A stretch of 64,000 nucleotides of DNA from Candidatus Accumulibacter cognatus (GTDB lineage: Bacteria; Pseudomonadota; Gammaproteobacteria; Burkholderiales; Rhodocyclaceae): contig CP058708.1 in assembly GCA_013414765.1 (NCBI GenBank), positions 2,661,553 to 2,725,552 of the forward strand, given 5' to 3'. Position 1 is the stretch's first letter; every line of letters begins with the position of its first letter. Both the position numbers and the translations under genes were made by a program. Positions 28,969-50,432 of the stretch are shown piece by piece. A model generated the notes under the pieces. It searched no databases, was not told where the DNA came from, and saw only the letters and a program-made list of their open reading frames with translations.

Positions 28969-30216
28969 ATGATGATTACGCCCAATATTCTTGCGTTGGT
29001 CCTGGCAGGCGGCGAAGGCACCCGTCTACATCCGCTGACCCAGCATCGTTCAAAGCCTTCAGTGCCTTTCGGCGGCCGTTTTCGCATCGTCGACTTCGTT
29101 CTCTCGAACCTGGTCAATTCGAAGATATTTTCCATTTACCTGTTGGTTCAATACAAGTCGCAGTCGCTGATCGAGCACATCCGCCGTTCCTGGTTGCTGG
29201 CTCCGATCTTTCCCGAGCAGTTCATCGCCGTCGTTCCGCCGCAGATGCGCGAAGGGCCGGAATGGTTCCAGGGCACTGCCGACGCCGTTTATCAGAACCT
29301 TGGACTGATCGAAAAGCGTGCACCGGACCTCGTTGTGGTGTTTGGTGCGGACCACGTCTATCGGATGGATGTCCGTCAGATGGTCCACTTTCACCTGCTC
29401 AGCCAAGCCGACGTCACCATCGCCGCGTTGCCGGTTCCCATTGGAGAAGCCTCGGCATTCGGCATCATTGATGCTGCTGACGACGGTCGCGTGCGCAGCT
29501 TCCGAGAGAAGCCGATCCAGCCGTCGCCGATGGCCGGTGACCCGACGCGCGCCTTCGCCTCGATGGGAAACTACATATTTACAACCGAGGTCCTGATCAA
29601 GGCGCTACGGGAAGGGCATCGCCTGGGAGAAAAGGATTTTGGCAAGGATCTGCTGCCGCGCTTGATCCAGACACAAAGGGTGTTTGCCTACGATTTCTGT
29701 GGGAATCGCATCCCCGGCATACACGCCTCCGAGGAGCCTGGCTACTGGCGCGACGTGGGCACGATCGATGCCTATTTTGCTGCCCACCAGGACCTCCTGG
29801 GTAGCGAACCGAGGTTGGATCTGTTCAATCCCAAGTGGCGGATCGGCTCCAGTAATTATCAGGGGCCGTCCCCGAAATTCTTCCACGCCGAGCTGGACAA
29901 CAGCATCATCAGTGCCGGCGGGCTGATCAAGGGGGCCCGCATCCGCAATTCGATCGTTCGCCGCGAGGTGTTCATGGAGGAGGATGTGGAACTCGATGAA
30001 TGCATCATCATGGACTACGCGGTGCTGCGCAAGGGAGTGAGGCTCAGGCGCGTGATCGTCGACCGTTACAACATCATCGAGGCCGGTGATCGTATCGGTT
30101 TCGATGCGGACGCCGACCGTCACCGATTTACCGTGACCGAATCAGGAATCGTGGTCATTCCCCGAGGCCAAGGCACGGATACCTATGCGGATGCGCGGAT
30201 GTTCCACTACCTCTAA
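28969..30216 (+). CDS. glgC: Glucose-1-phosphate adenylyltransferase
   Basis: A 415-residue ADP-glucose pyrophosphorylase. The nucleotide loop LAGGEGTRLHPLTQHRSKPS is at the N-terminus, then the catalytic region FGADHVYRMD and FREKP, then a C-terminal left-handed beta-helix. It makes ADP-glucose, the committed step of glycogen synthesis. Two adjacent ATGs (28969 and 28972) lie very close to the AAGAGGA ribosome binding site; the second has better spacing. It is divergent from thrH. Together with the GlgX fusion at 39.1 kb it indicates glycogen cycling. Confidence 0.95.
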   Translation: MMITPNILALVLAGGEGTRLHPLTQHRSKPSVPFGGRFRIVDFVLSNLVNSKIFSIYLLVQYKSQSLIEHIRRSWLLAPIFPEQFIAVVPPQMREGPEWFQGTADAVYQNLGLIEKRAPDLVVVFGADHVYRMDVRQMVHFHLLSQADVTIAALPVPIGEASAFGIIDAADDGRVRSFREKPIQPSPMAGDPTRAFASMGNYIFTTEVLIKALREGHRLGEKDFGKDLLPRLIQTQRVFAYDFCGNRIPGIHASEEPGYWRDVGTIDAYFAAHQDLLGSEPRLDLFNPKWRIGSSNYQGPSPKFFHAELDNSIISAGGLIKGARIRNSIVRREVFMEEDVELDECIIMDYAVLRKGVRLRRVIVDRYNIIEAGDRIGFDADADRHRFTVTESGIVVIPRGQGTDTYADARMFHYL

Positions 30217-30332: not shown

Positions 30333-32033
30333 ATGAGCAGTCACGAAGAGCCCGTTGCAGGGCAGCGCAAGGGATACGGGCAGCGCCAGGGCCGACGGGT
30401 CGATGCCGACCGGCGTGACGCCGTGGCGAAGCTGCTGGCTGACTTGCCCCTGCGCCGCGACCTGTTGCTGGAACATCTGCATCGATTGCAGGACGAGCAC
30501 AACTGTCTGCGCGCGGGAGACCTCGTGGCGCTGGCCGACTTGCTGCGGATTGGCGTCGCTGAAGTCTATGAGACGGCCAGCTTCTACGCCCATTTCGATC
30601 TTTGTGACGATGGCGATCCGGCGCCAGTGCTCGCGGTCCGGGTCTGTGACGGCCTCGCTTGCCGATTGCAGGGTGCCCTGCCACTGATGGCGTCGCTGCG
30701 CGAATGGCTACCGCCGGTGCGCGCCAGAGTTCTCCGGGCACCCTGCATGGGTCGCTGCGACCTTGCGCCCGTGGTCCAGGTCGGAAAGCGCCATGCCGAT
30801 CGGGCGAGCACCACAGGGGTGCTCGCCCTGATCGAGGCAAGGGTCCTGACACCATTCCCGGTTGCCAGCGAGAGTTTCGACGCCTACCGAGCACGCGGCG
30901 GCTACCAGCCGCTGCAGGCGCTGCGCGACGGCGCGTTGTCGACCCAGACGGTACTTGACGAAATCGAAGCAGCGGGGCTGCGCGGGATGGGCGGCGCCGG
31001 CTTTCCGAGTGCCCGAAAATGGCGGCTGGTCAGCAATGCGCCGGCACCGCGCTTCCTGGTCTGCAACGCCGACGAGGGCGAACCGGGTACTTTCAAGGAC
31101 CGACTGATCCTGGAACAGCAGCCACACCAGTTCCTCGAAGGCCTGCTGCTGGCGGCCAGTTGCATTGGCGCTACCCGTTGCTGGATCTATCTGCGTGACG
31201 AATACCCTGCCGCGCACGCCATACTGACTCGCGAGATCGTCTTGCTCGAACGCCTGAAACTGGTCGAAGCGGGCTTCATCGAGTTGCGTCGTGGCGCCGG
31301 TGCCTATATCTGCGGCGAGGAATCGGCGCTGATCGAGTCGATCGAGGGCAAGCGCGGTTACCCGAGGCAGCGCCCCCCTTACGTCGCCGAGGCCGGACTT
31401 TTCGGGCGGCCGACACTGGTCAACAACGTCGAGACACTGGCGCTGGTACCGGGAATTCTCTCTGGCGGAGGTGCACGCTTCGCCGCACTGGGTAGCAAGG
31501 GTTTTGCCGGTCTGCGCAGTTACTCGGTCTCTGGACGGGTGCGCGAGCCAGGAGTAAAGCAGGCACCGGCAGGAATCAGCGCGCGCCGCCTGATCGACGA
31601 CTACTGCGGCGGCATGGCCGAGGGTCATCAACTGCTGGCTTACCTGCCTGGCGGTGCCTCGGGAGGGATTCTGCCGGCGAGCATGGCCGATCTGCCGCTG
31701 CAGTTCGGCGAACTCGAGAAGGTCGGCTGCCTGATCGGTTCGGCGGCAGTGATCGTCCTCTCCGATCATGATGACCTGCGCGCTGCGGTGCAGGCGCTGC
31801 TCGAGTTCTTCGCCGACGAGAGTTGCGGCCAATGTACCCCCTGCCGGGTCGGCACCGAGAAGATGCTGGCCATGTTCCGCGCACCCGAACCGGACTTGGA
31901 TCTGCTCAATGAACTGGCCACGGTGATGCGCGATGCGTCGATCTGCGGCCTCGGCCAGGCGGCGCCGAATCCGCTGATGACGGCCTTGCGCTATCTGCCA
32001 CAGCATCTGTTAACAGGCCACGGCGATGGCTGA
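30333..32033 (+). CDS. NAD-dependent formate dehydrogenase, fused gamma-beta (NuoE-NuoF-like) subunit
   Basis: A 566-residue protein. Residues about 20-165 are a thioredoxin-like 2Fe-2S domain of NuoE type (ASFYAHFD, then CDGLAC and APCMGRC with four Cys). Residues about 185-566 are the NuoF-type NADH/FMN domain: GMGGAGFPSARKW, NADEGEPGTFKDR, and the 4Fe-4S site ESCGQCTPCRVGTEKM. It passes electrons from formate to NAD+. In Cupriavidus-type enzymes these are two genes (fdsG, fdsB); here they are fused, as in Methylobacterium FDH1. AGGAAA lies before ATG 30333. Its stop overlaps the alpha-subunit gene by 8 nt. Confidence 0.92.
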   Translation: MSSHEEPVAGQRKGYGQRQGRRVDADRRDAVAKLLADLPLRRDLLLEHLHRLQDEHNCLRAGDLVALADLLRIGVAEVYETASFYAHFDLCDDGDPAPVLAVRVCDGLACRLQGALPLMASLREWLPPVRARVLRAPCMGRCDLAPVVQVGKRHADRASTTGVLALIEARVLTPFPVASESFDAYRARGGYQPLQALRDGALSTQTVLDEIEAAGLRGMGGAGFPSARKWRLVSNAPAPRFLVCNADEGEPGTFKDRLILEQQPHQFLEGLLLAASCIGATRCWIYLRDEYPAAHAILTREIVLLERLKLVEAGFIELRRGAGAYICGEESALIESIEGKRGYPRQRPPYVAEAGLFGRPTLVNNVETLALVPGILSGGGARFAALGSKGFAGLRSYSVSGRVREPGVKQAPAGISARRLIDDYCGGMAEGHQLLAYLPGGASGGILPASMADLPLQFGELEKVGCLIGSAAVIVLSDHDDLRAAVQALLEFFADESCGQCTPCRVGTEKMLAMFRAPEPDLDLLNELATVMRDASICGLGQAAPNPLMTALRYLPQHLLTGHGDG

Positions 32034-34803
32034 GACCGGATCAGCAGAGCTTCGCTTCGTTCTCGATGGCCGCCCGTTGACGGCGCTGCCCGGCGAAACC
32101 ATCTGGCAGGCAGCCCGGCGCGCCGGTACGACGATTCCTCATCTGTGTACGCGCACAGCGCCAGACTATCAGCCGGGCAGCAACTGCCGCGCCTGCATGG
32201 TCGAGATCGACGGCGAGCGAAATCTCGCCCCCAGTTGCAGCCGCCAAGTCAGCGAGGGGATGCAGGTGCGCAGCGACACTTCCGAACGTGCCCGGCAAAG
32301 CCGACGGATGGTGATCGAACTGCTGCTCACCGAACAGCCGCCACGCGCGCAGGCGTACGACCGCAACTCGGCGTTCTGGTACTGGGCCGGGCAGGCGGGT
32401 GTGCACGCCAGCCGCTTTCCGCAACGCACCAGGGCGGCCTGTGCCGACCGCAGCCACCCGGCGATGAGCGTGCAGCTCGATGCCTGCATCCACTGCCAGC
32501 TCTGTCTGCAGGCTTGCCGCGACATCCAGGCAAACGACGTGATCGGCATGGCTGGTCGCGGCGCAGCGGCGAGGATCGTTTTCGATCTCGACGACCCGAT
32601 GGGCCGATCGAGCTGTGTCGGCTGCGGCGAATGCGTGCAGGCTTGCCCGACCGGCGCACTGCTGCCGACCGCGATGCTTGCCGATGACGGCAGCGGCCTG
32701 CTCGGGGCAGGCGAGACCGTCGACCGCGTCGTTCCCAGCGTCTGTCCTTACTGTGGCGTCGGCTGCCAGGTCGACTATCAGATCCGCAATGATCGGATCC
32801 TCGCCGTCAGCGGCCGCAACGGGCCGGCCAATCGCGAGCGCCTGTGCGTCAAGGGGCGCTTCGGTTTCGACTATGTGCACTCGCCAGAGCGCTTGCTGAA
32901 ACCCCTGATTCGCCGCGATGACGCGCCCAAGGTCGCCGACGCGGCCTTCGACCCGGCCAGGCCCGGCACGCATTTTCGGGAAGCGAGCTGGGAAGAGGCA
33001 CTGCAGCGGGCGGCGTCCGGGCTGCGGTCGATTCGCCAGCAACACGGTGGCGGCGCACTTGCCGGTTTTGGTTCGGCCAAGTGCAGCAACGAGGAAGCCT
33101 ACCTGTTCCAGAAACTGGTACGCACTGGTTTCGGCACCAACAATGTCGACCACTGCACCCGCCTCTGCCACGCCTCGTCGGTCGCGGCCTTGATCGAGGG
33201 GGTCGGTTCCGGCGCGGTATCGGCTTCATTCATGCAGATCGACCAGGCCGAGGTGGCGATCCTGATCGGCTGCAATCCGGAATCCAATCATCCGGTCGCC
33301 TCGACCTTCTTCAAACGCGCCGCACGCCAGGGCACCCGCCTGATCGTCATCGATCCGCGCCGCCATGGTCTGGCGCGCTTTGCCGACAAGACGCTGCAAT
33401 TCCGGCCAGGGACCGATGTCGCGCTGCTCAACGCGCTGCTGCACACGATCATCGACGAGGGCTTGTTCGATCCGGCGTATATCGCCCGCCATACCAGCGG
33501 CTTTGCCGAGATGCGCGCGCACCTTGACGCTTTCAGCCCGGAAGCGATGGCCGCAGTCTGCGGCATCATGGCCAGCGAAATCCGCGAAGTGGCGCGACTC
33601 TACGCCCGATCGAAAGCGTCGATGATCTTCTGGGGAATGGGAATTTCGCAACACGCGCATGGCACCGACAACGCGCGTTGCCTGATTGCTCTGGCGCTGA
33701 TGACCGGACACATCGGCCGTCCCGGTACCGGTCTGCATCCGCTGCGCGGGCAGAACAACGTCCAGGGCGCATCGGACGCCGGTCTGATCCCGATGGTCCT
33801 GCCTGACTACCTGCCGATCTCGGTGGCCGCCAATCGCCGACGTTTCGAACAACTCTGGAACACGACTCTCGATCCGCGGCCGGGGCTGACCGTGGTCGAG
33901 ATCATCAACGCCGCAGCCGCTGGCGACATCCGCGGCATGTACATCCTTGGAGAAAATCCGGCGATGTCCGACCCGGACCTCGGGCATGCGCGGCAAGCGC
34001 TGGCGTCTCTCGAACATCTGGTGGTGCAGGACCTGTTTCTCACCGAAACCGCAATCTACGCCGACGTCGTCCTGCCGGCTTCGGCCTGGCCGGAGAAAGA
34101 GGGCAGCGTAACCAATACCAATCGCCAGGTGCAGCTCGGTCGGCAGGCGCTACCCTTGCCCGGCGATACCCGGCCTGATTGGTGGATCATCCAGGAACTG
34201 GCGCGCCGGGTCGACCTCGACTGGCGCTACGACAGCCCACAAGCGATCTATTCCGAGATGCGCATGGCGATGCCCTCGCTGGCCAACATCAGCCACGAAC
34301 GCCTCTTGCGCGAGGGTTCGGTGAGCTACCCCTGCGCCGGCGCCGACGTGCCGGGTGCCGACGTCGTTTTCGAGAATGGTTTCCCGACGCCCAGTGGTCG
34401 TGCCGGCTTCGTTCCAGCCGCTCTGCTGCCACCCGACGAACAGCCGTCCGAGGAGTATCCGCTGATCCTGTCAACCGGGCGCTTGCTGGAGCATTGGCAT
34501 ACCGGCGCGATGAGCAGACGAAGCGTTACGCTTGACGCACTCGAACCCGAAGCGGTGGTGACCGTCAGTGACCAAGACCTGCGTCGGCTGGGACTGGCTG
34601 ACGGCGAGCGTGTCCGCCTGAGCACCCGGCGCGGTGCAGTCGAAGCCACGGCCCGCGCCGATCCGGCCGTCGCGCCCGGATCGTTGTGGCTGCCATTCTG
34701 CTACCACGAAGCCGCCGCCAACCGCCTGACCAACCCGATACTCGATCCCTTCGGCAAGATTCCCGAATTCAAGTACTGCGCGGTACGCCTGGAGCGTGCC
34801 TGA
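32026..34803 (+). CDS. fdsA: NAD-dependent formate dehydrogenase alpha (molybdopterin) subunit
   Basis: A 925-residue protein. Domains in order: N-terminal 2Fe-2S ferredoxin (CTRTAPDYQPGSNCRACMVEID); a His-containing NuoG-type iron-sulfur segment; a two-cluster ferredoxin (CIHCQLCLQACRD and CVGCGECVQACPTG); MopB Fe4S4 site (VCPYCGVGCQV); and bis-MGD catalytic domain with the active-site Cys in RLCHASSVAAL (Cys, not selenocysteine); then the molybdopterin-dinucleotide domain (ILSTGRLLEHWHTGAMSRRS). It oxidises formate to CO2 in the cytoplasm. It overlaps the preceding gene by 8 nt and directly abuts fdhD. Confidence 0.95.
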   Translation: MAETGSAELRFVLDGRPLTALPGETIWQAARRAGTTIPHLCTRTAPDYQPGSNCRACMVEIDGERNLAPSCSRQVSEGMQVRSDTSERARQSRRMVIELLLTEQPPRAQAYDRNSAFWYWAGQAGVHASRFPQRTRAACADRSHPAMSVQLDACIHCQLCLQACRDIQANDVIGMAGRGAAARIVFDLDDPMGRSSCVGCGECVQACPTGALLPTAMLADDGSGLLGAGETVDRVVPSVCPYCGVGCQVDYQIRNDRILAVSGRNGPANRERLCVKGRFGFDYVHSPERLLKPLIRRDDAPKVADAAFDPARPGTHFREASWEEALQRAASGLRSIRQQHGGGALAGFGSAKCSNEEAYLFQKLVRTGFGTNNVDHCTRLCHASSVAALIEGVGSGAVSASFMQIDQAEVAILIGCNPESNHPVASTFFKRAARQGTRLIVIDPRRHGLARFADKTLQFRPGTDVALLNALLHTIIDEGLFDPAYIARHTSGFAEMRAHLDAFSPEAMAAVCGIMASEIREVARLYARSKASMIFWGMGISQHAHGTDNARCLIALALMTGHIGRPGTGLHPLRGQNNVQGASDAGLIPMVLPDYLPISVAANRRRFEQLWNTTLDPRPGLTVVEIINAAAAGDIRGMYILGENPAMSDPDLGHARQALASLEHLVVQDLFLTETAIYADVVLPASAWPEKEGSVTNTNRQVQLGRQALPLPGDTRPDWWIIQELARRVDLDWRYDSPQAIYSEMRMAMPSLANISHERLLREGSVSYPCAGADVPGADVVFENGFPTPSGRAGFVPAALLPPDEQPSEEYPLILSTGRLLEHWHTGAMSRRSVTLDALEPEAVVTVSDQDLRRLGLADGERVRLSTRRGAVEATARADPAVAPGSLWLPFCYHEAAANRLTNPILDPFGKIPEFKYCAVRLERA

Positions 34804-35706
34804 ATGAGTACCTTCGCGCTGGCGCCCGACCCCGACGATCCGGAGCTCACACGCCACGTTGAAGGCTGCGACCACCGCGGCCAGGCGGTGGCGCTGAGTG
34901 TCGTCGTCGAGCGACCGCTGACCCTGTATCTGAACGGCACCGAGGTGGTCACGCTGATGACCATCGGCGACCACCCCGAGCTGCTGGCCCTGGGCTTTCT
35001 GCTCAACCAGAACATGCTTGCCGGCGACGATGCGGTCACCGCCGTGGATTATGACGGCGACCTTGACGTGGTGGTCGTTCGCACGCGCAGCGAGTCGAGC
35101 TACGAACGGAAGCTGCAGCGCAAGATTCGCACCTCGGGCTGCGCGCAGGGGACGATCTTTGGCGACATCATGGAGCGCTTCGACGACATCCGTCTCGACA
35201 CTGCCGCCGAGGTACGTTGCTCATGGCTGCAGAGTCTGTTCCTTCAGATTGGCCGGCAACCGAGCCTGTACCAGAAGGCCGGCGCGATTCACGGTTGCAT
35301 CCTCTGCGAGCGTGACCGCCCACTCGTCTATATGGAGGATGTCGGACGGCACAACGCCGTCGACAAGATCGCTGGCTACATGCACCGCTACGGTCTCTGC
35401 GGCCGCGACAAGATCTTCTACACCACCGGACGCCTGACCAGCGAAATGGTGATCAAGACGGTCCAGATGGAGATCCCGATCCTGGTGTCGCGCTCGGGTT
35501 TCACGGCCTGGGGCGTGGACCTTGCCCGGCGCGCTGGACTGACGCTGATCGGGCGCGCCAGGGGGCAGCGCTTCATCGTCCTGTCCGGCGGAGAAAGGCT
35601 GGTCTACGACCTCGATTTCGCCAAGGCAGCGGGCGACGATGGCGGTGAGCTGTCTGCGGCGCACAAGATTCGGCCTGACTGCGGTGCAAGCAACGACCCT
35701 GGCTGA
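34804..35706 (+). CDS. fdhD: Formate dehydrogenase accessory sulfurtransferase FdhD
   Basis: A 300-residue protein starting one codon after the fdsA stop. Family blocks: PLTLYLNGTEVVTLMTIGDHPELLALGFLL; SGCAQGTIFG, where the usual second catalytic Cys of CxxC is not seen; GAIHGCIL; and YMEDVGRHNAVDKIAGYM. FdhD transfers sulfur from IscS to the molybdenum cofactor of formate dehydrogenase, which fits its place in this operon. The betaproteobacterial Fds-type version commonly has a single Cys in this loop. Confidence 0.95.
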   Translation: MSTFALAPDPDDPELTRHVEGCDHRGQAVALSVVVERPLTLYLNGTEVVTLMTIGDHPELLALGFLLNQNMLAGDDAVTAVDYDGDLDVVVVRTRSESSYERKLQRKIRTSGCAQGTIFGDIMERFDDIRLDTAAEVRCSWLQSLFLQIGRQPSLYQKAGAIHGCILCERDRPLVYMEDVGRHNAVDKIAGYMHRYGLCGRDKIFYTTGRLTSEMVIKTVQMEIPILVSRSGFTAWGVDLARRAGLTLIGRARGQRFIVLSGGERLVYDLDFAKAAGDDGGELSAAHKIRPDCGASNDPG

Positions 35707-35750: not shown

Positions 35751-36833
35751 TCAGCGGCGTACGGCACCCGCCGTACCGGTCCAGACCCGCATGATGCGGT
35801 AAGGCGGCGTTCCCTGATCGCTTGCCCCCGTGAAGGCTCGGGTCGTATGCAACTGGTTGACCGAGATATAGAGCCAGCTGTCGTCGCCGAATTGCACGCT
35901 ATCCGGCCAGTTCAGGAGGGGGTTGCGAACGAATGGCTGCAATTCGCCCAGGGTATCCAGCCGATCGATGCCATTCTCGTTCAAATTGGTGAAGAAGTGG
36001 TTCCCCGCTGCATCGGTCGTGGCACCATCGGAAACCGGTTTGCGTCCGGCGACACGAATGGCCGCCGCGATGTCGGCATCGCTCCCTTCGCGCAATAACC
36101 GCGTTGGTACAGAGTACCAGCGGGTTCCGGTCATCGCGCCAAAGAAGAGGGTTTCGCCGTCAACAGACAAGCCCAAGGGATTGACTCCGCCTTTCGCCGG
36201 TTTTCCGCCGAAGAAAGTGGGTTGTCCGCCAACCCGCATCTCGGCCCCTTCCTCGGCTTGCAGGCTGGCGTGTCCCTGGAAGCGCCGGACCTTGCCGTCC
36301 TCGATGCGTACGGCCAGCAGGGCCGGATGATTGATGTCCGCCAGATAGATCCAGCCGCGCTCGGCATCCACCACCAGATCCTGGATGAAGCTGTCCTTGG
36401 GGGCGACATCGCCCGGCAGGTCGATGCGCCTGGCCAGTTTTCCAGTCGCGATATCAAACCCCCACAGCCGGGTCTTGCCGATGTTCAGGCCCATGTCGGT
36501 AATCCACAGGCGGCCCCGGCCGTCCTGCGTGATACCCAGCGGCGCATCGATGCGGCTATCCCCGCGTGTGTTCGCATCGCTTTGCAGATCGGCCGACGGC
36601 CATGGACGGTAGGATGCTGGCCCGGTAATCTCGATCAGTTGCAGACCGGACGGTACGTCCAGTGGGTGGACCGTGGCAAAGACACGGGCATTGGCAGTGG
36701 CGCTGACATTGCCCGGCCGAATCGGCAATTCGGCCACGGTTTCGAGCGTGCCGATGGCTGGCGCAGCCGTAATCAGATGGCTGCCTACCATCAGTGCAGC
36801 GGCTAGGAGATGGCGAAACAGATGGTGGGGCAT
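35751..36833 (-). CDS. Secreted beta-propeller of the major royal jelly / yellow family
   Basis: A 360-residue protein with a signal peptide (about 1-23, ending AAALMVGSHLITAAPA). The propeller repeats include DAPLGITQDGRGRLWITDMG, DLVVDAERGWIYLAD, and the late block FFTNLNENGIDRLD. Bacterial members of this L-dopachrome-tautomerase-related family are periplasmic or secreted; their reaction is usually unknown. The end is near that of fdhD on the opposite strand. No linked gene suggests a function. Confidence 0.82.
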   Translation of the reverse strand: MPHHLFRHLLAAALMVGSHLITAAPAIGTLETVAELPIRPGNVSATANARVFATVHPLDVPSGLQLIEITGPASYRPWPSADLQSDANTRGDSRIDAPLGITQDGRGRLWITDMGLNIGKTRLWGFDIATGKLARRIDLPGDVAPKDSFIQDLVVDAERGWIYLADINHPALLAVRIEDGKVRRFQGHASLQAEEGAEMRVGGQPTFFGGKPAKGGVNPLGLSVDGETLFFGAMTGTRWYSVPTRLLREGSDADIAAAIRVAGRKPVSDGATTDAAGNHFFTNLNENGIDRLDTLGELQPFVRNPLLNWPDSVQFGDDSWLYISVNQLHTTRAFTGASDQGTPPYRIMRVWTGTAGAVRR

Positions 36834-38979: not shown

Positions 38980-39111
38980 CGTTGAATGGTCGAATACCCT
39001 CATTGACGGCATGCAGGCGCGGCTCGCAGCAGGTCTCAGGTGCGATACAATGCGCAGAACAAAAAACCATTTCTACGAAATGGCTTATCATGTGAAACTG
39101 GAAGAGATCCC

Positions 39112-42100
39112 ATGTCTGAACCGATAACGGCCGTCTGGCCCGGAAAATCCTATCCTTTGGGCTCCACCTGGGACGGCGCAGGAGTCAATTTCGCCTTGTT
39201 CTCCGAGCACGCGGAGAAAGTCGAATTATGCTTGTTCGACGCCAGTGGGCGGCTGGAACTACAGCGCATCGAGATCCTCGAGCAGACCGATCAAATCTGG
39301 CATGTCTATCTGCCCGAAGTCCGTCCCGGACAGTTGTACGGATACCGGGTGCATGGGCCTTACCGACCCGAGCAGGGGCACCGTTTCAACCCGCACAAGC
39401 TGTTGCTCGACCCTTACGCCAGAGCCATCGTCGGCGGGATCGAGTGGAGCGATGCCCAATTCGCTTACCGCATCGGCAGTCCACAGGAAGATCTGAGCTT
39501 CAGCCGTCGCGACAGTGCGCCCGGAATGCTCAGGTGCCAAGTCATCGATCCGGATTTTGACTGGGAAGGCGACCAGCGCCCCAACATCCCCTGGCACCAA
39601 ACCGTGATTTATGAACTGCATGTCAAGGGTTTCACCCAACTGCATCCGCATGTTCCACCCGAATTGCGCGGTACCTATGCCGGACTGAGTGCCGGGCCGG
39701 TCATCGACCACCTCAAGCACCTGGGTGTGACGGCAGTGGAGTTCCTGCCGATACAGACCTTTGTGGATGATCGCCATCTGCTGGAGAAGGGGCTGAAGAA
39801 TTACTGGGGATACAATTCGATCGGCTATTTTGCTCCCGAGCCACGCTATTCCGCCAGCGGCCAGATCAACGAGTTCAAGCATCTGGTCAAGACGCTGCAC
39901 GCAGCCGGTATCGAGGTCATCATGGATGTGGTCTACAACCACACCGCCGAAGGCAACCATCTGGGACCAACACTATGCTTCCGAGGTATCGACAATGCTG
40001 CCTATTATCGCCTGGTGGCAGGCAACCTTCGTTACTACATGGATTACACCGGTTGTGGCAATACCTTGAACATGATGCATCCGCGGGTATTGCAGCTGAT
40101 CATGGACAGCCTGCGCTACTGGGTGATCGAGATGCACGTCGATGGTTTTCGCTTCGACCTGGCGGCGGCATTGGCGAGGGAACTGCACGAGGTCGATCAA
40201 CTCGGCGCATTCATGGACATCATTCACCAGGACCCGGTCCTGTCACAGGTGAAACTGATTGCGGAACCCTGGGACCTCGGCGAAGGCGGCTATCAGGTGG
40301 GCAACTTTCCGGTCGGCTGGACCGAGTGGAACGGCCGATACCGCGATGTGGTGCGCGACTACTGGCGGGGCGAGGGTGGCCTGATGGGACAGTTGGCTCA
40401 CCGGCTGACCGGTTCGAGCGATCTGTATCAGCACAGCGGTCGTCGGCCCTATGCCAGTATCAACTTCATTACCGCCCATGACGGCTTTACGCTCTACGAT
40501 CTGGTCAGCCATAACGAAAAGCACAACGCTGCCAATGGCGAAGACAACCGTGATGGCGACTCGCACAACCGCAGCTGGAACTGCGGCGCCGAGGGCGACA
40601 CCACCGACCCGGAGGTGCTGCAGCTGCGGGAGCGGCAGCGACGCAATCTGCTGGCGACACTGCTGCTTTCGCAAGGCGTGCCGATGCTGCTCGCCGGTGA
40701 TGAAATGGGCCGGACGCAATGTGGCAACAACAACGCCTATTGTCAGGACAATGAACTGAGCTGGCTCGATTGGCAACTGGCCTGGATGCCCGCAAACCGT
40801 GAACTGTTCGAATTCACCCGCCGCCTGATCGATCTGCGCAAAGCCCATCCAGCGCTACGTCGGCGACATTTCTTCCAGGGGCAGCGCATCCGCGGCGCGG
40901 GCGTCCGGGACATCATCTGGCTGCATCCGACGGGAAGCGAAATCAGTGATGAGGACTGGGACCATCATTATGCCCGTTGCTTCGGTGTGTACCTGATCGG
41001 CGAGGCCCTGGAAGAACAGGACGAGCGTGGCCGATGGGTCAAGGACGATGATTTTCTGCTGTTGCTCAATAGCCATTACGAGGCGATCCGGTTTACGCTC
41101 CCGTGGAAGGGAAACAGCGAGCTGGTTCTGGATAGCGCTCTATCGGAGGAGGGTGGTAATGGCCGGCCGTGCATGGGACCGACCTATCTCTTGCAGGGCC
41201 GTTCGCTGGCGCTGTTGACGCAGCGGCGGCAAGCCGGCCAGGTGGCGGTGCCATTGTTGCGGCGGCGTTATTTCATGCCCGTTGGCGCACAGCTACTGGA
41301 AGGTGGCCGGATTCGGTTCCGTCTGTGGGCGCCGCTGGCGGAGCGGGTGGAGGTGTCGCTGGAAGAGCCGGGTGGCACCGTTCATCTGCCGATGGAGGCG
41401 AGGGAAGCGGGCTGGTACGAATTGAGCACCGATCGGGCCAGGGTGGGCGATCTCTACCGGTACCGGATCGACGGCGTCGGAGAATTCCCGGATCCGGCTT
41501 CGCGTTACAACCCCCTGGGCGTACACGGTCCCAGCCAGTTATTGGACCCCGGTCAGTTCGTCTGGAACGACCGCAACTGGCGGGGCCGGCCCTGGGAAGA
41601 GGCGGTCCTCTATGAACTGCACGTCGGCGCCTTTACCCCGCAGGGCACCTTTGCAGCGGTTCGGGGACGGCTTGATTACCTGCGTGAACTGGGGGTGACC
41701 GCCATCCAGTTGCTGCCGGTCGCCGCTTTTGCCGGGGCACACAACTGGGGTTACGACGGCGTGCTGCCGTTTGCGCCCGCAGCCAGCTACGGCCATCCGG
41801 ACGAACTGAAAGATCTGATTCAGACGGCTCACCACAAGGGGCTGATGGTATTGCTGGACCTTGCCTGTCACTACTTCGGTCCCGAAGGCAATTATCTGCA
41901 TCTTTACGCGCCAGCGTTCTTCGCGACCGATGCGACCGGTCTGGCCGGCCGCAGTATCGATGCAGCGAACCCGGTGGTGCGCGAGTTCATCATCCACAAT
42001 GCGCTGTACTGGCTGGCAGAGTTCCACTTCGACGGCCTGCGCCTGAATGCCGCGCTGCTGCAGGAGCAGGCGGGGCAGCCGGATCTGTTGGAGGCGCTGG

Positions 42101-43035
42101 CTCACGCCGTCCGCGAAGGACCTGGCAGAGAGCGTCATTGCCACCTGCTGCTCGGCCATGATCGGCGTGCCGCGCGCTATATCCATTGGCATGATCACAG
42201 CGTGCCACGCCGCTACGAAGCAGTCTGGAATGACACGGCCCAGCAGGCCGTGCAGGAGGTGCTGATCGGTGCTGGCGTGGCCGCTGTCGATCGGCCGCTC
42301 GAGCGGTTGGGCGCGTGTTTGAGCCGGGGGATCACCGCTGGCGGGCCAGATTCCCTGTTACCCAGCGCTTTCGTGACCTTCCTGCAGGATCATGCCTGCA
42401 TTGGTAATCGCGCTCTGGGCGAGCGTCTTCACCAATTGGTGTCGCCGCGACCGCTGGGGGCCATGGTGGCGACCACGCTCCTGGCACCGATGCCGCCGGC
42501 GCTGTTCATGGGCGAGGAGTTCGCCGCCACCCAGCCGTTCCTGTATTTTTGCGATTTCAACCCGGATCTGATCAAGAAGATCGCCATCAACCGGCGCAAG
42601 TCCTTTGCCCATCTGCCGGGATTTCGCACGCCCAAAGCGCGGGCCCGCATTCCCGACCCCACCCATCCGGCCACCTTTGCGCGCTGCCAACTGGATTGGA
42701 ACAGCGTGAATCACTCACCGCACGCGGACTGGCTGGATTTCTATCGCCGCCTGCTGGCGGTTCGCCATCGGCAAATCACTACCCGCCTGGCGGGAATGCA
42801 TGAGGAAGCGGTGCAGTTTACCCTGCCAGGCGAACACGGGTTATCTATCCGCTGGACGCTCGGAGATGACTCGGTGCTGACCCTGCTGGGCAATTACGGC
42901 GACCTTCCGCTGGCGGGACTGCAACGGCCCGAAGGCGTGGTTCTGTGGGCCGAACCCGGTGAAGCCGAGCATGCGCTCAACCAGGGCCAATTGCCGCCAT
43001 GGTCGGTGGTGTGGTTGTTGCGGGCCGCCGGCTGA
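39112..43035 (+). CDS. glgX: Glycogen debranching enzyme (GlgX) fused to a catalytically degenerate TreZ-like half
   Basis: A 1307-residue protein; ATG 39112 follows GAAGAGATCCC. Residues about 1-730 are a complete isoamylase-type GlgX: CBM48 ([20 protein letters not shown]), then GH13 with D349 (DGFRFDLA), E385 (AEPWD) and D457 (TAHDGF), all intact. Residues about 735-1307 match maltooligosyl-trehalose trehalohydrolase (TreZ): [42 protein letters not shown] and FGPEGNYL. In this half the nucleophile Asp is N979 (FDGLRLNA), the acid Glu is G1015 (HLLLGHDRR), and the third Asp is A1095 ([13 protein letters not shown]). The second half is therefore probably not a hydrolase but could bind glucans or give structure. 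GlgX trims short branches from glycogen left by phosphorylase. Confidence 0.9.
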
Positions 43036-46245: not shown

Positions 46246-46484
46246 CGAGAAGCCTGAGGCACTCGCGTGTTGTATCAGGCAAGCCACTCCTGAAAATACG
46301 CCAATCTTGGCAAGCAAGACCGAAGCATCCACCAGAAACTGCCTCGCAGGGGTGATCAATTGATTATAATCAGACTGTTACCGAAGAGTGACAGTGAGCC
46401 GCCCAAGTTCTGCAGGCATGTGCGATGTGACCAGGGAGGCGGCACTGCTTGTTGGTTTCCCCATCACTGACAACAGGGGGCATC

Positions 46485-49400
46485 ATGACCATTGCAAACT
46501 TGACCTTGGCCCAGGTACTGGACCAGCTCAACTCGGGTCGGAGCTGGAGCGGTGCCAGTATCAGCTATTCGTTTCCGAACACGGCCCCGGGTCTGTACTC
46601 GCAAGGCGAGGCTGCGGCGTTCCGTGCATTCGATGCCGATCAGCGGTCGATGATGACCCTGGCGATGGTCACCTGGGACGATCTGATCTCTCCGAACTTT
46701 GTGCAGGGCACGGCGGGCACCACCCACATCGAGTTTGGCTACACCACCTCCAATATCGGCTTCGCCCACGCCTACTACCCGGAAATCGGCAGCGCCTGGT
46801 TCAACAACACCGAACCGGACCTGATCACGCCGCTGATCGGCGGCTACGGTTTTGATACTTTCATCCATGAACTCGGGCATGCGCTGGGCCTCAACCACAT
46901 GGGCGACTACAACGGCAATGGCAACTGGGCACCTTCGTCGTACCAGGATAGCGTGGTGCTGTCGGTGATGTCCTACTTCGGCCCGCGCTACGCGGCGCCC
47001 TATTACTCGTCCGAGGTAATGCAGGCCGACTGGACTGGCAGCGATGGCCGGACCTACTCGGCGCAGACACCGATGCTCAACGACGTCATGGCGATCCAGG
47101 CAATTTATGGTGCCTCCACCAGTACGCGGCTGGACAACACGGTCTACGGCTTTGGGAGCAACATCGTCGACAGCACCCGTGCGATCTATGACTTCTCCCT
47201 CAATGCGCATCCGATCCTGACTCTCTACGACGCGGGCGGTCTGGATACCCTGAACCTGAGCGGCTGGTCGACGCCCAGCCGCATCGACCTGCACGCCGGC
47301 GCGTTCTCGTCAGGTAATGACATGAGCAATAACATCGCGATCGCCTACAATGCGACGATCGAGAACGCCGAGGGCGGCGGTGGCAATGATGTGATCACCG
47401 GCAACGACACGGCCAACCTGTTGCGCGGCGCCGCCGGCAATGACGAGCTCTACGGCAGTGCCGGTGACGATACGCTGATCGGCGGCACCGGCAACGACGA
47501 CCTTCGTGGCGGCGCCGGTACCGACACAGCGGTGTTCGAGGGCAGTTTCGCCAGCTATACCATCAGCAGTAGCGGCGGTGTGCTGACCATCAGCAGCTCG
47601 GCCAGCGGCAGCGACCGGATCAGCGAGGTAGAACGTTTTCAGTTCGCCGACAGCACGCGCACGCTCGACCAGTTGTCTGCCGATAGCGACACCACTGCAC
47701 CGCAACTGGTGAGCCTGAACCCGTTGGACGACGGCAGCAACGTCGCCGTCGGTGCAAATCTGGTACTCAGCTTCGACGAGGCCATCAAGGCCGGCAACGG
47801 TACGATCAGCATCTACAACAGCGACGGCAGCCTGGCGCGCAGCATCAACGCTGTTGATGCGACACAGGTGCGCATCAATGGCAGCACCGTGATCGTCGAC
47901 CCTGCCACCGATCTGCTGGCCAGCCGTGGTTACTACATCACCCTGTCGGCCGGCGCATTGACCGACCTCGCCGACAATCCCTTCGCTGGCATCAGCGGCG
48001 CGACCCGCTGGAACTTCAACACCGGCAGCACCGACAGCAGTGCTCCACAGATCGTGGCGCTGACGCCGGCTGACGACAGCGGTAACGTCGCGCGCAATGC
48101 CAACCTGGTGATCGTCTTCAACGAGAGTGTTCGCACCGGCAGTGGCAACCTCAATATCCGCGATGCACTTGGAGAGCTTCGCACGATTGCGGTGACCGAT
48201 GCCAGCCAGGTCACGATTGACGGCAGTACGGTGACGATCAATCCAACGGCAGATCTGGCAGCTGGCGCCAGCTACACCATTACCGTCGATGCAGGTGCTT
48301 TCCACGACCTGGCCGGCAATCCCCATGGCGGCATAATGACGACCAGTGCCTGGAACTTCAGTACCAGCGCCACTACGGTGACCGACGACTATCCTTACAG
48401 CACCGACACCCCTGGGCTGGTCGTCGTCAATGGCGCAAGCGCATCGGGGACGATCGAAGTGCCTAACGACCAGGACCTGTTACGGGTCGAGTTGCTGGCT
48501 GGCGTCAACTACACCTTCGACCTCCAGCGCAAGGCTGGTGGCCTAGCCGATCCCTTCCTCGTGCTGTTCAGTCCGACCATCACGCAGGTGGCCTTCGATG
48601 ACGACAGCGGCGGTTCCGGCAACGCACGCATCAGCTATACGGCATTGACGACCGGCTCGTACTACCTGGCCGTTGTCGACTACGGCATCGGCACCGGCGG
48701 CTACACCTTGCGGGCCACGACCGCCGATTCGGTGGCGCCCACCCTGGTCAACCGGACGCCAGCCGACGATACGCAGGCCGTCAGCGTCAGTGCCGATCTC
48801 GTGCTGGACTTCAGCGAAACGGTGCTGGCCGGTAGCGGCAGCCTCCGGATCTACAACAGCAACGGCAGTCTGGTGCGCGAGATCCATGCCAGCGACAGCG
48901 CGGGGGTGCGTATCGCGGGCAACCGTGTCACCCTCAATCCGGGCGAGAACCTGCCTGCAGGCACCAGCTTCTACGTCAATATCGACGCCAATGCCTTCCG
49001 CGATGCCTCGGGCAACACCTATGCGGGCCTTTTCGACACGAGTTCGTGGAACTTCAGCACCGCTGCCGTGACGTCGACCGACGACTATCCATTGAGCTTG
49101 AACACTACGGGGATGGTCACCGTCAATGGTCCGGCACTCAACGCCCGTATCGACAGCAGCAACGACGGTGACCTGTTCAAGGTGGACCTGAGCACTGGTG
49201 TCACCTACCTCTTCGACATGATCAGCCCGCTCAGCAGTGCGGTGGACCCTTTCCTGGTGCTCTACGGAATGCAGCCCGAGGTGAACCTGATCACCTACGA
49301 CGATGACGGTGGTCCGCTGCCGCTGGATTCGCGGATCTACTACACCCCCTCCACCTCGGGGACCTACTATCTGGCGGCCTACGACTATGCCGAGGCGACC

Positions 49401-50432
49401 GGCACTTACAGTATTTCCGCCACGGTCCCGGTCGACGACTACCTGGGATCGACGGCCACCAGCGGTCGCCTGGTGAGCGGTGGCGCCGTGCTCACCGGCA
49501 GTATTGGTGTTCCCAGCGACATCGACATGTTCGCGCTGTCCACGATGGCGGGCGTGCAGTATTCGGTAGACCTGCGGAGTACCGGTCTGACCGACCCCTA
49601 CCTGGTGCTGCTCGACGCGGACGGCACCGCCATCGCCTACGACGACGACAGTCTGGGCTCCCTCAATGCCGAAATCACGTTTACCGCGCAGACCAGCGGC
49701 ACGATGTTCCTCGCCGTTTCCGATTTCGATGTCGGCACGGGCGCCTACAGTATCAACGCTTTCCCGCGTGTCGCGAACATCACCGGCACCTCCGGCGGCG
49801 ACAAGCTGATCGGTGGTGCGGACAGCGACCTGATCTATGGTCTTGGCGGCAACGACACGCTGACCGGCGGTGCGGGCAACGACACACTGGGAGGCGGTGA
49901 CGGCATCGACACCATCAACTATGGTGGCCCTGCCAGCCGTTATGTCCTGGGTGTGCCGGGCACTGGGTGGTCGGTACAGGACACTTCCAGCAGCGAGGGT
50001 CGTGACCTTCTGTACGATTTCGAACGCATTCATTTTTCCGACTACAATCTGGCGGTTGACATTGACGGCCATGCCGGCACGACCGCCAAGATTCTGGGCG
50101 CGGTCTTTGGTGCGACTGCGGTCCACAATCGCACCTATGTCGGCATTGCGCTAGGTCTACTCGACGGCGGCATGTCCGACCAAAGCCTGATGCAGCTGGC
50201 GCTCGACGTCAGGCTAGGTACCGCTGCCAGCCACCAGGCGGTGGCCAGCCTCCTTTACACCAATGTCATTGGCAGTGCGCCCCCGCCGGATGCCTTGGCG
50301 TACTTCACCAGCCTGCTCGATAACGGCGTGCTCACCCCGTCCGGCCTGGGTGTATTGGCGGCCGAAACCACGCAGAACGCAGTCAACATCAATCTCGTGG
50401 GGCTGTACGAGTCCGGTATCGAGTTTGTCTGA
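46485..50432 (+). CDS. Serralysin-like RTX zinc metalloprotease with Ig-like and PPC domains
   Basis: A 1315-residue protein starting at ATG 46485 after a G-run ribosome binding site. Residues about 1-235 are a metzincin protease with HELGHALGLNH (zinc ligands H128, H132, H138; catalytic E129) and the Met-turn SVMSYF. An RTX nonapeptide array follows (about 300-345: GGTGND, GGAGTD). Then come Big_5-like Ig domains (from about 402, 517 and 747, each starting APQLV/APTLV) alternating with PPC domains (from about 632, 863 and 982, each starting DDYP or DDY). A second RTX array lies near 1101-1130, then a DUF4214-like C-terminus (about 1190-1315). No signal peptide, so type I secretion is expected; no type I exporter genes are in this window. 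Calcium-dependent folding outside the cell is likely. Confidence 0.9.
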   Translation: MTIANLTLAQVLDQLNSGRSWSGASISYSFPNTAPGLYSQGEAAAFRAFDADQRSMMTLAMVTWDDLISPNFVQGTAGTTHIEFGYTTSNIGFAHAYYPEIGSAWFNNTEPDLITPLIGGYGFDTFIHELGHALGLNHMGDYNGNGNWAPSSYQDSVVLSVMSYFGPRYAAPYYSSEVMQADWTGSDGRTYSAQTPMLNDVMAIQAIYGASTSTRLDNTVYGFGSNIVDSTRAIYDFSLNAHPILTLYDAGGLDTLNLSGWSTPSRIDLHAGAFSSGNDMSNNIAIAYNATIENAEGGGGNDVITGNDTANLLRGAAGNDELYGSAGDDTLIGGTGNDDLRGGAGTDTAVFEGSFASYTISSSGGVLTISSSASGSDRISEVERFQFADSTRTLDQLSADSDTTAPQLVSLNPLDDGSNVAVGANLVLSFDEAIKAGNGTISIYNSDGSLARSINAVDATQVRINGSTVIVDPATDLLASRGYYITLSAGALTDLADNPFAGISGATRWNFNTGSTDSSAPQIVALTPADDSGNVARNANLVIVFNESVRTGSGNLNIRDALGELRTIAVTDASQVTIDGSTVTINPTADLAAGASYTITVDAGAFHDLAGNPHGGIMTTSAWNFSTSATTVTDDYPYSTDTPGLVVVNGASASGTIEVPNDQDLLRVELLAGVNYTFDLQRKAGGLADPFLVLFSPTITQVAFDDDSGGSGNARISYTALTTGSYYLAVVDYGIGTGGYTLRATTADSVAPTLVNRTPADDTQAVSVSADLVLDFSETVLAGSGSLRIYNSNGSLVREIHASDSAGVRIAGNRVTLNPGENLPAGTSFYVNIDANAFRDASGNTYAGLFDTSSWNFSTAAVTSTDDYPLSLNTTGMVTVNGPALNARIDSSNDGDLFKVDLSTGVTYLFDMISPLSSAVDPFLVLYGMQPEVNLITYDDDGGPLPLDSRIYYTPSTSGTYYLAAYDYAEATGTYSISATVPVDDYLGSTATSGRLVSGGAVLTGSIGVPSDIDMFALSTMAGVQYSVDLRSTGLTDPYLVLLDADGTAIAYDDDSLGSLNAEITFTAQTSGTMFLAVSDFDVGTGAYSINAFPRVANITGTSGGDKLIGGADSDLIYGLGGNDTLTGGAGNDTLGGGDGIDTINYGGPASRYVLGVPGTGWSVQDTSSSEGRDLLYDFERIHFSDYNLAVDIDGHAGTTAKILGAVFGATAVHNRTYVGIALGLLDGGMSDQSLMQLALDVRLGTAASHQAVASLLYTNVIGSAPPPDALAYFTSLLDNGVLTPSGLGVLAAETTQNAVNINLVGLYESGIEFV

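Follow-up and report, generated by a model that had tools for sequence, protein, structure and literature searches.

Gene Content of the Locus

The window, that is, the whole stretch of 64,000 nucleotides of the Candidatus Accumulibacter cognatus genome analyzed here (contig CP058708.1, positions 2,661,553 to 2,725,552), carries at 39112–43035, on the forward strand like all parts of this gene given below, one open frame of 1307 amino acids in which the glycogen debranching enzyme GlgX is joined to a domain with the fold of maltooligosyl-trehalose trehalohydrolase (TreZ). An earlier note, made from the letters of this DNA alone, had described such a fusion with a dead TreZ-like half, and the translated frame together with the two profile matches within it confirms that observation. 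The frame begins with an ATG which follows, 5 bases on, a Shine-Dalgarno-like ggaagag (39100–39106; read directly, a consensus match only), and this start is backed both by that sequence and by the conservation of the N-terminus among the fusions. The GlgX half comprises residues 1–703 (39112–41220), with a CBM48 match and a GH13 debranching domain; the NCBIfam GlgX profile TIGR02100 matches residues 11–703 with 1158.2 bits, well over its curated cut-off of 640.9. A linker of residues 704–721 (41221–41274), with LRRRYF at its end, leads to M722 (41275–41277) in the motif FMP[FVA]GAQ, which aligns with the MPFGAE start of standalone TreZ and appears to be a fossil TreZ start codon. The junction sequence LRRRYFMP is invariant in all 12 aligned fusions. 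Inspection of the DNA by eye revealed no Shine-Dalgarno-like sequence or ribosome-binding site upstream of M722, so that a separate TreZ product from this codon looks unlikely. A DNA motif scan found nothing.

The TreZ-fold half occupies residues 735–1307 (41314–43032), as indicated by profile and structure alignments and by fold prediction. The NCBIfam TreZ profile TIGR02402, whose cut-off is 538.8 bits, matches residues 735–1254, scoring 626.6 bits on the whole protein and 506.3 bits on the stretch found in a second search; the half also matches the solved TreZ structure 2bhu at E 2.9e-88, and a TreZ fold is predicted for it with a pLDDT of 85.9 and a pTM of 0.90. The profile of the bifunctional GlgX/MalQ protein (NF011082) gives 730.1 bits against a cut-off of 2511, its best stretch being residues 7–703, the GlgX half. 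The model of the joined halves (residues 109–1307) has a pLDDT of 48.3, which renders its interdomain arrangement unusable.

Several other genes of the window were recorded. A glucose-1-phosphate adenylyltransferase (GlgC) gene lies about 9 kb upstream of the fusion (28969–30213), and 32026–35706 encodes the 925-aa alpha subunit of formate dehydrogenase and, next to it, FdhD. On the reverse strand, 35751–36833 encodes a bacterial member of the major royal jelly protein family (PF03022, E 3.1e-20). Downstream, a 1327-aa frame (46449–50432) combines a serralysin-like M10 region, three Big_5 (bacterial Ig-like) stretches and RTX repeats.

An Intact GlgX Joined to a Dismantled TreZ

The catalytic triad of the GlgX half, D349, E385 and D457, is present in all 12 fusions that cover these positions, the partial L074 among them, as the earlier note had read it in this one gene; the half is thus an intact debranching enzyme with predicted activity. 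In the second half, profile alignments place N979 (42046–42048), G1015 (42154–42156) and A1095 (42394–42396) in the columns of the nucleophile D252, the acid/base E283 and the transition-state D377 of Sulfolobus TreZ, in agreement with the positions named in the earlier note; D252 and E283 were taken from PDB titles, and D377 was counted in the alignment. The deposited E283Q mutant 3vgg places its Gln in the acid/base column of the alignment. Pairwise alignments set the Glu of 2bhu and 3m07 opposite H1016, one residue past G1015, and since neither residue is a carboxylate the acid/base is absent in either register; the alignment with the genus's own, closer TreZ has no gap in this region.

Across the 13 carriers of the fusion described below, the acid/base and the third carboxylate are lost in every one, and the nucleophile in 12. 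The nucleophile position holds Asn in 11, Ser in one (L069) and Asp in one (L066); the acid/base position holds Gly in 12 and Ser in one; and the third position holds Ala in 11 and Ser in two. The claim that all three carboxylates have gone accordingly stands for 12 of the carriers and fails for L066, which has kept its nucleophile Asp. All 69 non-fused relatives among the best 80 of 377 keep Asp, Glu and Asp. The exception, a fusion in a Propionivibrio MAG (L066:7817–11752), is a possible stepwise intermediate, and its retention of the nucleophile alone suggests that this residue went last.

The surroundings of the former active site were held in the earlier note to be kept, which is true of the scaffold: of 161 columns conserved at 97% or more in the 69 intact TreZ, 110 stay unchanged in all 11 fusions compared, R977 included. 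More has been lost around the site than was claimed: GH13 region I is degenerate (residues 916–921, 41857–41874, DLACHY for DVVYNH), all 11 fusions compared lack its Asn, and 8 of them, the window's among these, also lack its His. The fusions are further missing a loop of some 14 residues ahead of region IV, deleted between residues 1078 and 1079 (42345–42346); its extent was read from an alignment showing three fusions, and all 11 have gaps at three of its columns. The W945 position is changed in 11 of 11 fusions, and H1016 stands in place of Asn in 10 of 11.

Distribution of the Fusion

A search of 28 genomes of the genus found the fusion in 10, a separate TreZ in 9 and neither in 9; one fusion (G026) is cut by a contig end, and two of the genomes with neither gene are less than 90% complete. 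The gene is thus dispensable at genus level. A scan of 84,980 species genomes with two short peptide patterns yielded 377 relatives; the analysis went on with the best 80 of them, 11 fusions and 69 non-fused proteins. Merging both sets gives 13 genomes or contigs, all with the same fusion and a dismantled site: the 10 genus genomes, the Propionivibrio MAG, an uncultured proteobacterium (L069) and a short contig labelled Methylococcaceae, possibly misbinned (L074). No fusion with an intact TreZ triad, which the earlier note had named as evidence against itself, was found among the relatives examined. Within the 69 non-fused proteins of the best 80 of 377, 53 have at least 30 residues of their own frame ahead of TreZ, in no case GlgX-like, and some of the 69 bear other extensions, e.g., frames of about 1600 aa.

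In a survey of 297 genomes of the family, 36 gave a match at E <= 1e-100, and four of these are fusions, all of the same genus; the catalytic residues were read in part of the 36. Four other frames exceed 1000 aa, two of which (G137, G168) come from genomes with a separate glgX in another frame, while G208 and G258 were judged by eye from the frame start. In a survey of 399 genomes of the order, matches past 1e-180 came from just two, the window's own and that of a relative whose frame is 666 aa long, and hence that draw holds no further fusion carrier.

Origin and Evolutionary History

In the trees of both halves the fusions fall together in a single clade, consistent with a single origin; in the TreZ tree this clade stands on a long stem (0.76). 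The TreZ tree was built without the partial L074, and G015 is absent from the 80-row set; the GlgX trees held 70 and then 57 rows, after removal of duplicates and some distant rows. Among the non-fused relatives in the best 80 of 377 that have at least 1.5 kb of DNA before treZ (63), glgX lies on the same strand no more than 2.6 kb upstream in 49. Given this operon adjacency, an in-frame merger of two neighbors would be a simple origin.

The operon now found in the genus does not appear to be the simple source of the fusions. In Accumulibacter with a separate TreZ the gene order is glgB, treS-mak, glgC, glgX, treZ and malQ-treY (families named from one genome, G022). The GlgX halves of the fusions do not group with this operon GlgX (AU p 1.4e-94, for a group chosen after the first tree), and, by tree topology only, the TreZ half does not join the genus's own TreZ. 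With the fusion placed apart from the genus's own genes in both trees, simple local, vertical decay of the Accumulibacter glgX-treZ operon is not supported. On the ppk1 tree the fusion label needs five changes, which implies that losses or transfers occurred.

The neighborhood of the fusion varies among carriers. A second glgB lies directly downstream in six fusion genomes; in the carriers G000, G026 and G012, the last two of them drafts, no match to this second glgB exceeds 56% identity. In G019, a truncated glgX remnant (L046:8922–9614; fusion residues 1–149 and 217–241) sits directly before the second glgB; this genome has its intact fusion on a different contig, where it adjoins the lipocalin gene blc, an arrangement shared with the window.

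The Trehalose Pathway in the Carriers

TreY passes its cut-off in 9 of the 28 genus genomes, exactly those nine with a separate TreZ, which is intact in all of them, and in none of the 10 fusion genomes, where only weak profile matches were seen. TreS passes in 10 of the 28, one of which is a fusion genome (G023). A GT20 (OtsA-type) synthase was found in none of the 28 at E <= 1e-30, the control scoring in 5 of 14 known genomes. Nine of the 10 fusion genomes therefore lack all three routes surveyed (TreY, TreS, GT20) at the thresholds used, and the tenth has TreS only; several of the genomes are drafts.

Selection on the Dead Half

One-ratio codon models gave an omega of 0.149 for the dead TreZ half and 0.085 for the GlgX half over 11 fusions each, and 0.071 for nine standalone Accumulibacter TreZ; G026, which ends at a contig end, was set aside. 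Under neutral drift omega would approach 1. The dead TreZ half is thus under purifying selection, and a high dN/dS on the second half, which the earlier note had named as grounds for abandoning its claim, did not come out. This selection is about twice as loose as that on working TreZ, and its pattern has changed: the ratio of mean site rates in active-site windows to those in the terminal domains is 0.93 in the fusions (10 rows), whereas two intact clades of 12 rows each give 0.37 and 0.46, and none of 5000 site bootstraps reversed either comparison, although the windows were picked after a first profile had been seen and the test is not a blind one. These rate tests, and the one on lost columns that follows, were run without L074 and L064, a near-copy of L065, among the fusion rows.

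Columns that are invariant in TreZ and lost in all fusions evolve within the fusions at rates like those of other columns (p 0.29), which counts against any strong claim of neofunctionalization; 10 of these 22 columns are invariant within the fusions. In the column counts, which here and for the active-site columns above leave out the partial L074, 33 residues are shared by all 11 fusions but seldom occur among the 69 non-fused proteins of the best 80 of 377; the same count gives 0 and 2 in two intact clades, though the long stem of the fusion clade by itself favors many such residues. They include W1026, H1029, S1030 and V1038 in one short, fusion-specific motif (residues 1026–1040, 42187–42231), as well as Q1044, Q1045, Q1048 and C919.

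A Proposed Accessory Domain in Cis and Its Alternatives

We consider it clearly more probable than any single competing account, and slightly better than an even bet, that a former TreZ, now dead, serves here as a permanent accessory domain of an intact glycogen debranching enzyme. In this proposal glgX and treZ, operon neighbors in most relatives, would have merged through loss of the glgX stop codon, and the start Met of TreZ would have been retained in the merged gene as M722. With TreY gone there would have been no substrate left for a trehalohydrolase, and catalysis would have been lost for that reason, TreY presumably having disappeared beforehand; the folded body would have been retained because it had become part of GlgX. 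The dead half may then act in cis, either by holding GlgX in a particular assembly or as a surface that positions the branched glucan or a partner enzyme, and it would work in the manner of the non-catalytic ISA2 beside the catalytic ISA1 of plants, but within one chain. Telling against this proposal are the looser selection on the dead half, the ordinary rates of the lost columns, the nucleophile kept in L066, the nine genus genomes that have neither gene, and the trees, which set the fusion apart from the genus's own TreZ and GlgX. Tuning of debranching by the dead half is plausible. A more specific claim, for which we would put the chances at rather below even, is that the protein is a bacterial cis-acting pseudoenzyme, in which a former glycoside hydrolase of about 570 residues serves as a built-in regulator or architectural subunit that shapes glycogen mobilization in a model phosphorus-removing bacterium, as an independent counterpart of ISA1/ISA2.

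The most serious competitor, though we judge it unlikely, is that the TreZ half is a decaying relic without function, selected only to stay foldable and so spare the attached GlgX. The doubled omega relative to working TreZ, the vanished constraint on the active site, the ordinary rates of columns lost from the TreZ pattern and the absence of TreY from the carriers would all be expected of such a relic. Against these stand an omega which is still far below neutrality, the 33 new clade-fixed residues, and sites of the N- and C-terminal domains that evolve relatively more slowly than in working TreZ. The 10 fusion matches of the genus are also free of internal stops, although for the codon analyses the frames were picked as open ones, which makes their lack of stops a matter of construction. 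Finally, the half could be removed by a simple truncation, yet it is present.

It is more doubtful still that the old cleft continues to hold a maltooligosaccharide without cutting it, as a glucan-binding pocket. The many conserved TreZ columns that persist unchanged, with R977 among them, speak for this, as does the second rank of the maltose-bound structure 2bhz in a Foldseek search, a rank that indicates fold and not binding. However, the extra constraint around the old cleft has vanished, and in all 11 fusions W945, the Asn of region I and the loop (about 14 residues) are altered or missing. Because that constraint has gone from the old pocket and not from the domain, surfaces and packing are favored over ligand binding in the cleft. 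The earlier interpretation is thus supported in part: its conserved scaffold with a lost active site stands, while its proposal of glucan binding, insofar as it concerns the old pocket, has lost ground. A new chemistry at the altered site is very improbable: the newly fixed Q1044, Q1045, Q1048 and C919 and the His that replaces Asn at 1016 could be read in its favor, but the GH13 catalytic carboxylates are all gone in 12 of 13 carriers, with two of three gone in the other, and sites close to the old pocket evolve at unremarkable rates. An error of sequencing or assembly as the source of the fusion or its substitutions is rejected as next to impossible: nothing was found in its favor, and the same fusion recurs across separate genomes or contigs, 13 in all, of which 11 share an Asn in place of the nucleophile.

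Relation to Known Systems and Significance

The closest parallel to the accessory-domain reading is the ISA1/ISA2 pair of plants, in which, according to the consulted portions of PMC12510319, an active isoamylase-type debranching enzyme is accompanied by a dead GH13 homologue under selection. The fusion likewise joins a debranching domain with an intact triad to a dead GH13 homologue under selection. ISA2, by contrast, forms a subunit of its own and is paralogous to ISA1 (PMC12510319, same portions), whereas here, in a bacterium, the dead partner is a former TreZ in the same chain. ISA2 is described there as a non-catalytic partner proposed to shape the way the complex meets its glucan, and such explanations are presented as proposals still (PMC12510319, in part). 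A second parallel, in the portions of PMC7935935 consulted, is the GlgA-GlgB fusion of Waddliaceae and Criblamydiaceae, also a fusion of glycogen genes whose second enzyme is reported as non-functional. In that case assays are reported to show that branching activity is lost, and the fused extension is given as the cause (PMC7935935, in part), whereas the second half of the GlgX-TreZ fusion lacks the very residues of catalysis and is under purifying selection. Working TreZ (TIGR02402; solved as 2bhu and 3vgb) shares the fold and many scaffold residues with the fused half, which differs in its lost triad, altered region I, deleted loop and absent TreY partner. Bifunctional GlgX/MalQ (NF011082) resembles the fusion in extending GlgX with a C-terminal glucan enzyme, but the extension in that case is a 4-alpha-glucanotransferase.

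Searches of open-licence PMC papers are in line with the suggestion that such a fusion may be undescribed: neither a GlgX-TreZ fusion nor a TreZ pseudoenzyme is mentioned in the excerpts returned, including those of PMC7778627, PMC11046441, PMC7935935, PMC12604563 and PMC12016536, and nothing useful at residue level on TreZ was found in that literature. In the part of PMC7778627 consulted, treX, treY and treZ are inferred in Accumulibacter by BLASTp with a threshold of 1E-40 in 59 metagenomes. Since nine of the 10 fusion genomes are without TreY, TreS and GT20, this inference, so far as that part gives it, needs a species-by-species check. The strength with which the fused half matches 2bhu implies, more generally, that homology searches will credit fusion-bearing species with a TreZ step that is presumably beyond them, and annotation should be read with this in mind.

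Candidatus Accumulibacter serves as the model organism of biological phosphorus removal, and its anaerobic uptake of substrate is supported by glycogen turnover. A dead enzyme carried in cis on a debranching enzyme would offer a clean bacterial system for the roles of non-catalytic GH13 partners.
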